From positions 1 to 54,162 of the forward strand of contig CATKEF010000058.1 in assembly GCA_949747905.1 (NCBI GenBank): a stretch of DNA of 54,162 nt. Direction: 5' to 3'. A program made the translations under genes and the position numbers. This DNA comes from an uncultured Eubacteriales bacterium (GTDB taxonomy: Bacteria > Bacillota > Clostridia > Christensenellales > Borkfalkiaceae). The number at the start of each line of letters is the position of its first letter. Within the stretch, counting starts at the first letter, position 1. This document shows, in pieces, positions 38,584 to 43,645 of this stretch. The notes under the pieces were generated by a model that made no database searches, was not told the DNA's origin, and was given only the letters and a program-made list of their open reading frames with translations.

Positions 38584-38630
38584 TTTCAGCGCCCCGAGCT
38601 CGGGGCGCTGAAACGCGGCATGCCGCGTTT
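38584..38630. repeat. Two adjacent perfect palindromes in the kinase B leader
   Basis: A 30-bp perfect palindrome (38584-38613; half-site TTTCAGCGCCCCGAG) touches a 20-bp perfect palindrome (38611-38630; half-site AAACGCGGCA). In plus direction the second is followed by TTTTTTATATT and would be a good terminator. In minus direction both lie in the kinase leader, 17 bases before the ATG. Confidence 0.8.
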
Positions 38631-38635
38631 TTTAT

Positions 38636-38664
38636 ATTCTAACAGAACAACCGTTCCTTGTCAA
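38636..38664 (-). promoter_or_regulatory. Promoter of the kinase B/regulator B operon
   Basis: -35 TTGACA (38659-38664), 17-bp spacer, -10 TAGAAT (38636-38641). The predicted start is near 38629, so the palindromes are transcribed. No copy of the 21-bp tandem motif is seen here. Confidence 0.75.
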
Positions 38665-38684: not shown

Positions 38685-39566
38685 TCAACCGTAAATACAG
38701 CGACATATATATGCGGCGTATTTCTCCGCAATATTCGCTCCGGTAACCTTTTCGAGACCTCCGAAGAACGCATTGGAATTTACTTCGCAGATATAATACC
38801 CGTTCTCGCCGAAGAGCACGTCTATTCCGCAATAATCGAGTTTCAGTATGCCCGCGGTCTTTTCGCAGAGATTTATAACTTCGCGGGGAGGATTGAAAGG
38901 TGTCCCCGCGCCGCCCAACTCGAGATTGGACCTGAAATCGCCGTCCGAAGTCCGCACCATTGCCGCGACGAATTTCCCGCCGATAACGATGACTCTTATA
39001 TCCCTGCCGAAGCTCGAAGAGATAAACTGCTGAAAAAGATGGGATTTGCATTTGAGTTCTTCGGCAATTTTTTCAAGCTGCTCCCTGTCGTCGGCTTTGT
39101 ATACGCCCTTCCCGAGCGAACCGTAACTTGTCTTTACGACTACGGGATACCCGAGCATTTTTTCCACCGCGTCGAGCGTCTCCGCGCGAACGTCCTCCTT
39201 GGGGTCGTAACAGAGAAGCCCCGGAAGCGTCGCGGGCATCGGTATGTCGTTATCGGCAAGTATCACGGACGTAAGCATTTTATCGTCGCACGCTTCCACC
39301 GCGTAATGGGAATTGAAAAGACGAAGCCCGCACTTTTCAAGCATCTGCGAAACGTATTTATCCTTGTCGAGATATATACAAAAATCGTACTCGTCCGCGC
39401 ACGACTGCAAATTACCCTTTCCGTCTATATACGCGGCGAAAAAATCGTTGCGCCTTATTTCGGCGCGCACGCCCATATTTTCAAGTTCCGCTTTCAGGCG
39501 CACGGACTGATTGAGACTATGTTCGAGTTTTGAATAAGCGTTGACAAGTATAAGTCCTTTTTTCAT
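38685..39566 (-). CDS. RimK-like ATP-grasp ligase of the TIR/SLOG gene set
   Basis: 293 residues. N-terminal Rossmann-like pre-ATP-grasp part (about 1-95: GLILVNAYSKLEHSLNQSVR) and an ATP-grasp domain with YPVVVKTSYGSLGKGVY, FQQFISSSFGRDIRVIVIGG, and the metal-binding end YYICEVNSNAFF. RimK/LysX-type enzymes join an amino acid or other amine to a carboxylate using ATP. The start overlaps the TIR-methyltransferase stop by 4 bases (ATGA), so the two are expressed together. In conflict systems ATP-grasp ligases tag proteins or peptides; here the substrate is unknown. It is much more like RimK than Ddl. Confidence 0.85.
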   Translation of the reverse strand: MKKGLILVNAYSKLEHSLNQSVRLKAELENMGVRAEIRRNDFFAAYIDGKGNLQSCADEYDFCIYLDKDKYVSQMLEKCGLRLFNSHYAVEACDDKMLTSVILADNDIPMPATLPGLLCYDPKEDVRAETLDAVEKMLGYPVVVKTSYGSLGKGVYKADDREQLEKIAEELKCKSHLFQQFISSSFGRDIRVIVIGGKFVAAMVRTSDGDFRSNLELGGAGTPFNPPREVINLCEKTAGILKLDYCGIDVLFGENGYYICEVNSNAFFGGLEKVTGANIAEKYAAYICRCIYG

Positions 39567-40915
39567 TTTACCCCCGCAACGGCAATATACGAAGTATTGC
39601 AGTACCAGAAATCTCTTTCGCAGAACGCCTCTTTCAAAGTGGTAAGAGCTTTTTCCATCCAGGCGCGCTCGGATTTTAAAAATTCGTTATCCGGATTCAG
39701 CTTTATAAGGTCGTCGATTCTGTTCAGTCTGAATTTGAAACCCACGTCAAAAAGATTTTCCTTTCTCTTCCTGTCCTTTTCGCAGGTATCGGTAACGGAA
39801 TACAGCATTCTTATTCCGACGTATCCCGTCCCGTACAGCTGAGAATATAATTTTCTGCCGTTGGACCTGTCGGAATTCGTTATAAGTTTTCCCGACCTCT
39901 CTATTATTTCGTTTAACAGCTCGGTTTCGGGATAACAAAGTTTGCCGCCGTCATCCGAACCTCTTATTATTATTTTTCCGTCGTCCGAGAAAATGTCGTA
40001 AAGTTTTAAAAGCAACAGTTTGGGGTTTTTGAGGTGATGCAGAACAAGCGCGGCAAACACCAAGTCTATCTTTTCGATACCGTTTTCGGCGAAGATGGAG
40101 TTCAACTCGCTTATAACGTTTTTATCTTCGAGGTCGAGGCGATAAAAAGCAAACCTGTCGCCGTAGCCCTCCGCCGCGGCTTTTGCCTCCTCGATGTCTC
40201 TTTCGTTATAATCCACGCCTATCACTTTTTTGATACGCGAATCGGAGGCAAATCTGGAAATCGTGAGAGCGCCGTTCGAACAGCCGAGATCGAGAATGCA
40301 AAGGTCGTCCCTTCCCAACTCGTCGAAAACTCCGTTTATAGCCTGCATATCGAAATTGTAGTAGCCCTTCTGCTGTCTGAAAAGCCTCTCCTTTTCTCCT
40401 TTGATTTCCGAAGTATATTTGCCCACCACGAAATCTTCGTTTCCCTGCGGAGCGTCACCGGAAAACCCCCACTGTGCAAAAGTCTCTTTTATGCGCGTCC
40501 AATCGAAACCGGACGCCCTTACGAAAAGCTGCTGGTCGGAAAGATATTCCATTATGCTGTCGAGGACGTATCTCTTGTTTTCGTCCAGTTTATCCGCTAT
40601 GGAACTGTAAAGCTCCATCAAAGTCAGGTTGTTAGTCATTATGCAGAAAAACTTTTTCCTGAACCTTGCGGTGTATTCGATTTCAGTAAGCACGGGTTTG
40701 CTCGTGAGCGATTTTTCGCTTACGACTATGAGCACGCCCTTGCACCGCTCGCTGCTTATATATCTGCGGGCGTTGAGGTCCCACTCTTCGCCGTAGCTCA
40801 TAGCGTTGTCGAATACCACGTTATATCCCTGCTTGTCGAAAGCCGAAGTTATGGGGTCGATGTCGTTTGCGTGAGAATAACTGATAAATACGTAATCTTT
40901 TGTCCTGTCGTTCAT
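39563..40915 (-). CDS. TIR domain fused to class I SAM-dependent methyltransferase
   Basis: 450 residues. Residues 1 to about 125 form a TIR domain: strand A DYVFISYSHANDID, BB-like loop, CKGVLIVVSEKSL, and a Glu-rich helix KPVLTEIEYTARF where Glu78 or Glu80 sits in the place of the NADase catalytic Glu. After a linker, residues about 190-420 form a Rossmann methyltransferase: motif I CILDLGCSNGAL, acidic ribose-binding Asp235 in IGVDYNE, LVFAALVLHHLKNP and a strand 5 loop FSDDGKIIIRGSDDGG. TIR domains in bacterial immunity cleave NAD or make cyclic nucleotides. The methyltransferase target is unknown. It follows the HD-RyR-SLOG gene by 47 bases with AAAGGG. I know no described protein with this pair. 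Confidence 0.88.
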   Translation of the reverse strand: MNDRTKDYVFISYSHANDIDPITSAFDKQGYNVVFDNAMSYGEEWDLNARRYISSERCKGVLIVVSEKSLTSKPVLTEIEYTARFRKKFFCIMTNNLTLMELYSSIADKLDENKRYVLDSIMEYLSDQQLFVRASGFDWTRIKETFAQWGFSGDAPQGNEDFVVGKYTSEIKGEKERLFRQQKGYYNFDMQAINGVFDELGRDDLCILDLGCSNGALTISRFASDSRIKKVIGVDYNERDIEEAKAAAEGYGDRFAFYRLDLEDKNVISELNSIFAENGIEKIDLVFAALVLHHLKNPKLLLLKLYDIFSDDGKIIIRGSDDGGKLCYPETELLNEIIERSGKLITNSDRSNGRKLYSQLYGTGYVGIRMLYSVTDTCEKDRKRKENLFDVGFKFRLNRIDDLIKLNPDNEFLKSERAWMEKALTTLKEAFCERDFWYCNTSYIAVAGVK

Positions 40916-40962
40916 ATTTGCTACCCTTTATATACTGCGTTATTACGTTTGCCCGACGAAAA

Positions 40963-43185
40963 TTATCCGAAAAGTTTTATCTTCTTTCCGGCGGAACGCG
41001 CCGCCGTATAAGTATCGTAAGTTCCGCCCCTGTTCAGTTCTTTACCGTTCTCGTCCTCGAGCGGCAGAACCTTGCCGTCCCACAAAACGAGCATTTCGTC
41101 GCATTGTCTGACAATATACCTGCTCATATCCTCGTACCGTCTGAGGTTATTCGGCTTGACCCTGACCTCCTTGGTCTGCGCCAGTACGCGCATAAACTGC
41201 ACGCCGCCGTCCGCATGCTCCTTTATAAAAGATTTCCACGGACAGGGAAGCACGGCTATCACGTCTATTCCGCACTTGACCGCTTCCTCGGCAAACAGCA
41301 AGTCGGCGCCGTCCGCAAAACCGCAATAAAGAACGGGCTGATATTTTTCGCAAAGTTCTCTTATGTACGTCCTGATTTTACCGCGCACGTCCTCTTCCAA
41401 GAAGCCGTTAATGCGCCCGAGCTCTCTATGCCCCGTACACCCCAGAATATATGCCTGTTTACGCATGTTCATACGGTAAATTTTTATCCCGTATTTGTCC
41501 AGGTTTTTTACCATATTGTTTATAGGAAAATAGTCTTTTTTCTTTTCGCTGAGCGAAAGGTCGGAATAGGGAATTATATCTTTATGTATTCTCAGCCTTT
41601 CCCGTTCCGCCCTGTTTTTATATGACGTCCCGTATTTCCAGCCCATGCCCGCTTTTTCGTTTACCCAACGTATATGCTCGTCCACCGCCAGATAATCGAG
41701 TTCGTCTTCCGTAAATTCGCCGACGGCAACATAGTCAAGCTGTCTGTCGCTGAAAAAACAGTTTATGTTCTGCAAATGCCTTACGTAATTTTTTGCCTGA
41801 GCGATATTGGACAGCTTGTATTCGAGAGTAAGATTGTCGAACTCTTCGCGCAGATAACCCTTTATTCCCGCCTGTTTGCAATCCTCCATATAACTTATAT
41901 TTATCGTTTCGGCAATTTTGCAAAGACTTATGAATTTGCCGTCCGAAATATAATCGTAAACTTTTTTATCTTTCTTCTTGATACCGACTTTTGCGGTCAG
42001 TCCCCCTATCTCTTTCGTATCGACGACGGCACTGTCAATGTCTTCCGCGAGATTTATTATTTTCTTTGTGTCCGAATAGTTACCGACTTCGAAATAATAG
42101 TCGAGCTTAACACCCGAATCGTCTACGTAGATATCCGCGTCCCAGGCAAGCTCCTGTTTTCTGCTCAATTCCCCGTAGGGCACGCGGTCCCAACACTGCA
42201 ATTCGTCGCAAAGCATTAAAAGATAAGCGAACGGTTGTTCTTTAAGATGAATCTGCTCGTACTTATCCCCCTTAATTTCAGACTTATAAGTGCGCTTGTA
42301 AAAACTGTTGTGCAACAACATTGCCATTACGGAATCAAGCGTGATACGGTCTAGAACGAACCCCTCCGTTTTCAACAGCTTTTTAAGAAACAGAACCGCG
42401 CTGAAATATCCGTGGTCCATAAATTCGGTTGCTTCCGTAATTCGCTTTACAAGACAATTTTCTATTATTTTCAAATCGAGCGCGGCATTATCCGTCAACG
42501 CCCCGAAATTTTTAAGTATCTCCGAAGCGAAAAGCGCGTTTATGTCCCGTCTGCCCTCCGGCATGAACTCTCCGCATTTTGCCGCCTCCTCCTGTGAAAG
42601 CATTGTAAAGTCGCAAAGATTCGCATACTGCATTCTCAGTATCTCGGAATCGTTTCCTGTCTTTTTACCGTATTCGAGCACTTCCAGAAAGGAAATTTCA
42701 TAGGGATAGCCTATGTCGTGAAAAAGCCCCGCAATGCCCCAGTATCTGAGAAATTTTTCATACAGTTTCTCTTCGCCGTAACGCTTTGCGAAAGCGTCAC
42801 GAACGGTTTTATTGCCGTTGAATATAGCAAGACCGAGAGCGAAAACATACACAGAATGCGAGTAATGGTCTCTATGTTTGGTTAAGAGCGTGGCGCTGTT
42901 CGATTCATGCTGATACAATAGTTCCAGAAGTGAATCTATGCCCCGTTTATATCCGCCGAACGTTTCGAATATTTCCGAATAACAGAAAAACACGTCAAAC
43001 GCGTCCTCTTTCGCACCCGTTCTCAAAAATCGCGCAAGCGCGTTCTTGAAGCACAGCTTGTCAACGTCGCGATTGAAATTATATGCGCAACCGTTGGCTT
43101 CCTCGATATTCCCCGCCTCGCCGTCTTTATGCAAAAGCTCGGCGTCGTTAAATATTGCCGTACTCGAATCAATCAAAGACTTCAT
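40963..43185 (-). CDS. HD phosphohydrolase - RyR - SLOG domain fusion protein
   Basis: 740 residues from an ATG with GGAGAGAG; a GTG 15 codons earlier would need most of the leader. Domains in order: HD-type metal phosphohydrolase (about 95-335) with candidate ligands His107/110, His156-Asp157 (LFHDIGY), His258, His292 and Asp327; a middle region of unclear fold (about 340-480); a RyR domain (about 486-573: LAVDEHIRWVNEKAG, GWKYGTSYKN, IPYSDLSLSEKKKDY); and a SLOG domain (about 577-740: LGCTGHRELG, CGFADGADLLFAEEA, GGTYDTYTAARSAG). RyR and SLOG domains are thought to bind nucleotide ligands, and HD domains hydrolyse them. First gene of the three-gene set, with its own promoter. A signalling or conflict role is inferred. 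Confidence 0.85.
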   Translation of the reverse strand: MKSLIDSSTAIFNDAELLHKDGEAGNIEEANGCAYNFNRDVDKLCFKNALARFLRTGAKEDAFDVFFCYSEIFETFGGYKRGIDSLLELLYQHESNSATLLTKHRDHYSHSVYVFALGLAIFNGNKTVRDAFAKRYGEEKLYEKFLRYWGIAGLFHDIGYPYEISFLEVLEYGKKTGNDSEILRMQYANLCDFTMLSQEEAAKCGEFMPEGRRDINALFASEILKNFGALTDNAALDLKIIENCLVKRITEATEFMDHGYFSAVLFLKKLLKTEGFVLDRITLDSVMAMLLHNSFYKRTYKSEIKGDKYEQIHLKEQPFAYLLMLCDELQCWDRVPYGELSRKQELAWDADIYVDDSGVKLDYYFEVGNYSDTKKIINLAEDIDSAVVDTKEIGGLTAKVGIKKKDKKVYDYISDGKFISLCKIAETINISYMEDCKQAGIKGYLREEFDNLTLEYKLSNIAQAKNYVRHLQNINCFFSDRQLDYVAVGEFTEDELDYLAVDEHIRWVNEKAGMGWKYGTSYKNRAERERLRIHKDIIPYSDLSLSEKKKDYFPINNMVKNLDKYGIKIYRMNMRKQAYILGCTGHRELGRINGFLEEDVRGKIRTYIRELCEKYQPVLYCGFADGADLLFAEEAVKCGIDVIAVLPCPWKSFIKEHADGGVQFMRVLAQTKEVRVKPNNLRRYEDMSRYIVRQCDEMLVLWDGKVLPLEDENGKELNRGGTYDTYTAARSAGKKIKLFG

Positions 43186-43220
43186 TTCTCTCTCCGCAAA
43201 CGTATAAACTTTATATGATA

Positions 43221-43249
43221 AATATATCACATAATTTCACAATTTGCAA
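43221..43249 (-). promoter_or_regulatory. Promoter of the HD-RyR-SLOG operon
   Basis: -35 TTGCAA (43244-43249), 17-bp spacer, -10 TATATT (43221-43226). The predicted start near 43214 leaves a leader of about 29 bases with GGAGAGAG. Confidence 0.65.
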
Positions 43250-43289: not shown

Positions 43290-43645
43290 GATAATTATGT
43301 CGTGTTGAACTCTGAAAAAAATTTTCCGTCTTGTTGAGAACGGAATAAAATTTTTTGTCATGTTAAATTCGGAATGACTCTTAATGTCATGTTGAGCGTA
43401 AGCGAAACATCCGATTCCTCGCTACGCTCGGAATGACGATTTATTTAGCAATGACGACTTATTTAACTAAGAATGACAGAAAAGAATCCTCGCTACCTTT
43501 GTCACCCCAAATTACCTTTACCGCCCAAAGGAATCCTTATCACACCGAAAAACCCTTTCAACCCGAGCCCCCTTTATCAACACGAGCAATTTTTGTCATC
43601 ATGGGCTACCTTTGTCACCCCGAGCGCAGCGAGGGGCACTCCCCT
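43290..43645. repeat. Gene-free stretch of degenerate GTCATGTTGAG / GAATGAC palindromic repeats
   Basis: About 500 bases (43231-43743) have no credible gene. Within them are several degenerate copies of one module: TGTCATGTTGAGCGTAAGCG at 43385-43404, its partly reverse-complementary TCCTCGCTACGCTCGGAATGAC (43416-43437, shown in two overlapping pieces of the same module), weaker copies near 43297, 43327 and 43356, and a CACCCCGAGCGCAGCGAGGGG copy near 43616. Such GTCATTCCGAGCG-AGCGAGGAATC modules are widespread intergenic repeats in gut Firmicutes and Bacteroidetes. The plus-strand frame across them has no ribosome site. Confidence 0.75.

Follow-up and report, generated by a model that had tools for sequence, protein, structure and literature searches.

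A candidate nucleotide-signalling gene pair: TIR-methyltransferase and HD-RyR-SLOG genes side by side in a Borkfalkiaceae genome

Introduction

Thoeris type I systems pair a TIR protein, ThsB, with the Sir2-SLOG protein ThsA, in whose layout the enzyme comes first and the SLOG domain last. A founding paper on SLOG domains, that of Burroughs et al. from 2015, reportedly also deals with SLOG-linked nucleotide systems (SMODS, SLATT). RyR domains are known from calcium channels of animals and from proteins with which phages counter immunity. Trp880 of Repeat12 of human RyR3 is reported to stack adenine (PMC12627627), and a preprint of 29 May 2026 (PMC13232231) describes phage RyR-domain anti-Thoeris proteins, RyDEP, in which H75 and D117 form the catalytic dyad, W78 stacks on adenine and H100 contacts phosphate; six of the eight phage RyR homologs tested there bind cyclic ADP-ribose (cADPR)-type signals, and the available part of the preprint states no function for bacterial RyR proteins. 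Here we describe a locus in a stretch of 54,162 nucleotides (contig CATKEF010000058.1, hereafter the window) from an uncultured Eubacteriales bacterium of the Borkfalkiaceae, where a gene for an HD-RyR-SLOG protein (gene 1) is followed by genes for a TIR-methyltransferase (gene 2) and a RimK-family ATP-grasp ligase (gene 3). The source genome is of 1.6 Mb and 97% complete.

In the literature that we searched, "RyR domain" and "Thoeris" occurred together only in PMC13232231, and the ryanodine receptor, anti-phage activity and TIR co-occurred in that preprint and in two reviews; RCK domain, TIR domain and phage were found together in no paper, and the term TIR-methyltransferase in none.

Results

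Association of TIR genes with HD-RyR genes

A scan of named genomes yielded 317 relatives of gene 1, from which the best 80 loci were mapped, the records being mostly from Clostridia, plus Bacilli, Coriobacteria and others; the counts given here cover 78 of them, as L155 and L158 had no anchor open reading frame (ORF). The SLOG domain was fused in 44/78 loci, and a shorter HD-RyR form was present in 34/78. A TIR gene lay within five genes of HD-RyR in 27/78 loci, being the next gene in 18 and on the same strand within 100 bases in 12. TIR genes made up 34 of the 586 ORFs within five genes, against 3 of 225 ORFs farther away in the same loci and 0 of 131 in a control of 12 loci around the ligase gene in same-genus or same-order genomes, not lineage-matched to the HD-RyR loci; since many HD-RyR loci are from other lineages than the control loci, the farther ORFs constitute the better control. 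After clustering at 70% identity, a TIR was present in 21/50 clusters (and the TM-RCK-RyR protein described below in 19/50), and Pfam upheld 34/36 TIR calls in a check that took 36 of the 37 candidates, with L095:1-603 omitted. Among 101 related genomes, 6/19 RyR domains were located within 5 kb of a TIR versus 0.2 expected, a count based on the 98 TIR and 19 RyR rows over the Pfam cut-off with genome size set to 1.65 Mb; 3 RyR rows and the weaker TIR rows scored below that cut-off and were dropped.

The link between TIR and HD-RyR is real. An earlier note on this DNA had linked a TIR with a protein that combines SLOG, RyR and an HD region, and this claim was supported: TIR genes stand beside HD-RyR well above background, TIRs occur close to RyR domains, there is support for both the RyR and the SLOG fold, and phage RyR-domain proteins have been shown to bind cADPR isomers (PMC13232231). 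Some of the TIR partners bear LRR, beta-propeller, Sel1 or nitroreductase parts, which suggests that the TIR proteins detect the trigger.

We also observed a recurring cassette adjoining HD-RyR-SLOG in L095, L097, L107 and L119, and partly also in L132 and L130. It contains a TIR protein of 354-383 amino acids (aa), a protein of ~700 aa, one of ~317 aa that is ParA/KGG-like by eye, and one of ~780-990 aa; L095, L107 and L119 add a protein of ~200 aa (GNAT in L107), and in L107 and L095 a TIR-methyltransferase comes next, truncated where the retrieved sequence ends.

Domain features of the gene 1 and gene 2 products

The H..HD..D pattern of the gene 1 product, comprising the seven residues listed in Table 1, was kept in 76/76 proteins, and these residues would act as metal ligands. 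Its RyR module is complete, with a two-fold Repeat12 fold supported; the PF02026 match reached 33.7 bits (cut-off, 27.4), and 42/42 aligned proteins matched this family (E up to 0.1). In gene 1 the counterparts of RyDEP H75, W78, H100 and D117 are H504, W507, H534 and D551, which 76, 76, 74 and 74 of 76 proteins retain, respectively; this mapping was derived from the EHxRW motif, an identical distance of 17 residues from H to D and a HMMER alignment to other RyR chains rather than from direct alignment to RyDEP. The SLOG fold that the earlier note had proposed was supported as well (SLOG superfamily, YpsA-like), as were the RyR, TIR, methyltransferase and RimK-family ligase of its domain set, the HD region being recognised by its conserved residues.

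Truncated or fragmentary copies of HD-RyR-SLOG were seen in two genus-mates (G006:C1:62283-63493 and G055:C6:41512-42021), which suggests gene decay, and the genome that holds the window has another, incomplete SLOG-like match (E 8.5e-5) where a contig ends (G000:C65:5-238). Searching viral contigs with exact peptide patterns, an approach of limited reach, gave no relative.

The gene 2 product matched TIR_2 at 7.2e-8, while the ThsB models of PADLOC reached only 0.0065, and a profile built from 11 of its relatives matched TIR-1/SARM1 (E 1e-16). Residue E78, chosen by visual inspection of a conserved LxE column in the alignment of close relatives, is kept in these relatives, and the profile alignment does not fix its exact equivalence to the SARM1 Glu. 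This TIR domain is a candidate NAD+-using signal producer. Genes coding for TIR-methyltransferases are present in several relatives, in differing contexts; motif I for S-adenosylmethionine (SAM) appears degraded, by eye, in two paralogs, so some of these proteins may not be active enzymes. One side observation is the order in G008 (L091:10300-14051), where two TIR-methyltransferase genes come after HD-RyR-SLOG with a pair of GNAT acetyltransferase genes between them; SAM motif I of the second TIR-methyltransferase looks degraded. The best PADLOC match of gene 2 was mad2 (5e-9), over residues 190-317, that is, to the methyltransferase and not to the TIR.

Membrane partners of the HD-RyR loci

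A channel-like protein with transmembrane, RCK and RyR parts (TM-RCK-RyR) was encoded within five genes in 26/78 HD-RyR loci, as the next gene in 21, and a SLOG-membrane protein in 13/78; a membrane partner of either kind was present in 38/78, a TIR without membrane partner in 15/78, and one or more of the three kinds of partner (TIR, TM-RCK-RyR, SLOG-membrane) in 53/78. Two representatives of the SLOG-bearing partners were scanned and gave weak DUF4231 matches (8e-4 and 0.03), one of them also SLATT_3 (0.1). Related loci with a predicted RCK-channel-like protein that ends in a RyR-type region and lies near a TIR include L122:5711-7951 and L173-L179; the latter are illustrative and uncounted, because they were picked for RyR or channel hits sharing a contig with TIR hits. 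In L175 and L176 the channel-like protein also adjoins a stand-alone RyR protein of 92-93 aa, a RyDEP-like size. A class-wide check placed channel and TIR within 5 kb in 4/23 genomes (close in G353, G371 and G460, with a weak match in G211) and in none of the other 19.

The ligase gene and the layout of the locus

Gene 3 was assigned to the RimK family by TIGR00768 (196 bits, cut-off 143.4). The ligase is present in 75/101 relatives and in 53/61 same-genus genomes, mostly as a single copy, two of the 53 being fragments. Directly upstream of it, in the 14 compared loci with a ligase ORF (L085, where it was not called, was left out), we found a TIR-methyltransferase in 3, namely the window and two loci fetched for having it, a gene for a 202-205 aa protein in 4, and another gene or the contig end in 7. 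In 3/3 genomes with the close form the TIR-methyltransferase gene runs into the ligase gene, sharing 4, 4 and 1 bases with it. The 202-205 aa protein also overlaps the ligase start, by 4 bases (L083:7079-7690, L086:4581-5192, L088:6184-6801, L090:7181-7789); its N-terminal half is apparently hydrophobic, and the one member scanned had no Pfam match. HD-RyR-SLOG adjoins TIR-methyltransferases in G008, whose ligase is on another contig, and G002 and G015 have TIR-methyltransferase and ligase without HD-RyR-SLOG. We read the ligase as a core gene of the genus that is probably a bystander, a housekeeping gene in the neighbourhood.

The three minus-strand ORFs of the locus extend over 38685..43230 (Table 1) and stand in the order HD-RyR-SLOG, TIR-methyltransferase and RimK-family ligase, in agreement with the three same-strand genes of the earlier note; the "good promoter" that it gave them turned out to be a weak site. 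The probable start codon of gene 1 is the ATG at 43185. The flanking genes resemble ordinary chromosomal genes, judged by eye from their translations, and the G+C of the three genes is similar to that of the flanks. The best promoter-like site of the region (11/12) lies at 38584-38664 on the minus strand with a strong 13-pair terminator-like hairpin directly after it, just before a histidine-kinase-like gene, and is possibly an attenuator leader. A 23-base repeat with 7 copies in the genome is located at 43413-43435, upstream of gene 1.

Table 1. Positions in the window of the genes, domains and promoter-like site of the locus.
Feature	Position	Strand	Remarks
Promoter-like site upstream of gene 1, weak	43221..43249	(-)	TTGCAA-17-TATATT, 9/12
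Gene 1, HD-RyR-SLOG protein, 740 aa	40963..43185	(-)	alternative GTG start at 43230
HD phosphohydrolase region, residues ~71-400	41986..42975	(-)	H107, H110, H156-D157, H258, H292, D327 invariant
RyR module, residues 410-573	41467..41958	(-)	Repeat12-type fold
SLOG domain, residues 577-740	40966..41457	(-)	YpsA/DprA type; also resembles ThsA SLOG domain
Gene 2, TIR-methyltransferase protein, 450 aa	39563..40915	(-)	
TIR domain, residues ~9-140	40496..40891	(-)	candidate catalytic Glu E78
Class I SAM methyltransferase domain, residues ~197-450	39566..40327	(-)	conserved DDG motif
Gene 3, RimK-family ATP-grasp ligase, 293 aa	38685..39566	(-)	

Discussion

We propose that genes 1 and 2 may constitute a nucleotide-signalling pair in which the TIR makes a signal, the HD-RyR-SLOG protein captures it and the HD region acts, a reading that we hold with about as much belief as doubt. 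On some trigger, the TIR domain of gene 2 would convert NAD+ into an ADP-ribose-type signal, e.g., a cADPR isomer. The RyR pocket of gene 1, whose fold and residues H504, W507, H534 and D551 are set out above, would capture this signal, and the C-terminal SLOG domain may sense the same signal or a related nucleotide. Capture would then switch on, or feed, the metal-dependent HD phosphohydrolase, which, with or without the RyR dyad, would destroy the signal as a built-in off-switch, or alternatively destroy a cell nucleotide as an effector. The off-switch seems a little more likely, because a separate membrane protein, a possible effector, lies within five genes in the 38 loci counted above; the effector role is kept, because no such membrane partner was seen in the window genome. 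The substrate of the methyltransferase may be the signal or a partner. A defence role is plausible by analogy with the precedents of these domains.

Several observations weigh against this proposal. HD-RyR-SLOG and TIR-methyltransferase adjoin each other in only one locus besides the window, that of G008, and full-length gene 1 is patchy, being present in 7/61 same-genus genomes. Among the fused-SLOG loci, a TIR is found within five genes in only 12/44 and adjacent on the same strand in only 3/44, the commoner neighbour being the channel-like protein (22/44), a partner that was not found in the window genome. Of the 38 loci that have a membrane partner, only 12 also have a TIR within five genes, and 25/78 loci lack all three kinds of partner. 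Catalysis by the HD region as a phosphohydrolase is deduced from its residues only, and none of the eight other phage homologs tested in PMC13232231 was found to degrade the signals. PADLOC families were not enriched in 110 sampled neighbours relative to 108 control ORFs.

The same observations bear on other explanations. It is possible, if doubtful, that gene 1 is a Thoeris-like effector, whose SLOG/RyR half binds a TIR-made signal and turns on the HD region to destroy nucleotides or nucleic acid, with HD replacing the Sir2 of ThsA. The enzyme-first, SLOG-last layout and the SLOG fold match those of ThsA, and the invariance of the seven HD-type residues, the lack of a channel-like partner in the window genome and the 15 loci with a TIR and no membrane partner within five genes also argue for this role; a second effector would, however, be redundant where channel-like or SLOG-membrane partners exist. 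Moreover, the tested phage RyR-domain relatives sequester or degrade the signal (PMC13232231). We regard as unlikely that the genes act outside defence, regulating NAD/ADP-ribose metabolism in housekeeping or stress and using TIR, RyR and SLOG domains only incidentally. The ordinary-looking flanks, the flank-like G+C and the PADLOC result would be consistent with such a regulator, whereas the patchy distribution of gene 1 and the TIR partners with LRR, beta-propeller, Sel1 and nitroreductase parts, a turnover typical of conflict systems, argue against it.

Chance neighbourhood, with the TIR-methyltransferase belonging to the ligase and HD-RyR-SLOG having landed beside them, would account for the finding that the nearest relatives of the TIR-methyltransferase, two at 61% and 51%, stand directly before the ligase without gene 1. 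Nevertheless, TIR genes adjoin HD-RyR in many loci, and G008 has two TIR-methyltransferases beside a gene 1 of 68% identity with no ligase there, and we consider this explanation quite improbable. Less probable still is the full system of the earlier note, in which the ligase works with the other two products in making or modifying a single signal. The overlap between TIR-methyltransferase and ligase genes in all genomes with the close form speaks for it; on the other side, the ligase occurs in 53/61 same-genus genomes regardless of the other two genes, which goes against its being a system component, and the 202-205 aa gene fills the same overlapping slot in 4/14 loci. Co-occurrence of the three genes, which the earlier note had set as a refutation test, was not seen elsewhere: they stand side by side only in the window, among 101 genomes.

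The recurrent placement of RyR domains beside TIR enzymes leads to the prediction that bacteria use the RyR domains to receive or erase TIR-made signals; if borne out, this would connect bacterial TIR immunity with the long-disputed cADPR-RyR relation in animals. In a wider and tentative view, which we think is rather less than probable, the RyR domain would be the host receptor for TIR-made cADPR signals, HD-RyR-SLOG would be the soluble receiver and terminator in a network widespread in Clostridia and Bacilli, and in sister loci the same signal would open an RCK-type channel through its C-terminal RyR. If true, a bacterial cADPR-gated, RyR-bearing channel would foreshadow animal cADPR-ryanodine-receptor signalling.

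Regarding known systems, gene 1 resembles RyDEP in its PF02026 domain, Repeat12 fold and four ligand or catalytic residues, and differs from it in that its RyR is fused to HD and SLOG and neighbours a TIR instead of opposing one; furthermore, RyDEP is phage-encoded, whereas gene 1 lies on a bacterial contig with chromosome-like flanks. Compared with the Repeat12 of animal ryanodine receptors, gene 1 has no channel part, and the architecture of the whole protein is unrelated. The predicted channel-like partner, found in other loci and not in the window, shares 11-12% identity with the RCK-gated K+ channels GsuK and MthK, but ends in a RyR-type region. The SLOG-bearing protein beside HD-RyR in 13 of the 78 loci provides a point of likeness to SMODS- and SLATT-type systems. 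The likeness to mad2 of the MADS defence system is confined to the methyltransferase domain, and generic methyltransferase similarity is the likely reason. With Thoeris type I the locus shares a TIR protein adjoining a SLOG-bearing enzyme, with SLOG folds alike; in contrast, gene 1 has HD and RyR with no Sir2 or macro match, and the TIR of gene 2 carries a methyltransferase. We do not class the locus as Thoeris, because a ThsA-type effector is absent, and take the gene pair as a variant on the theme of TIR-to-sensor nucleotide signalling.
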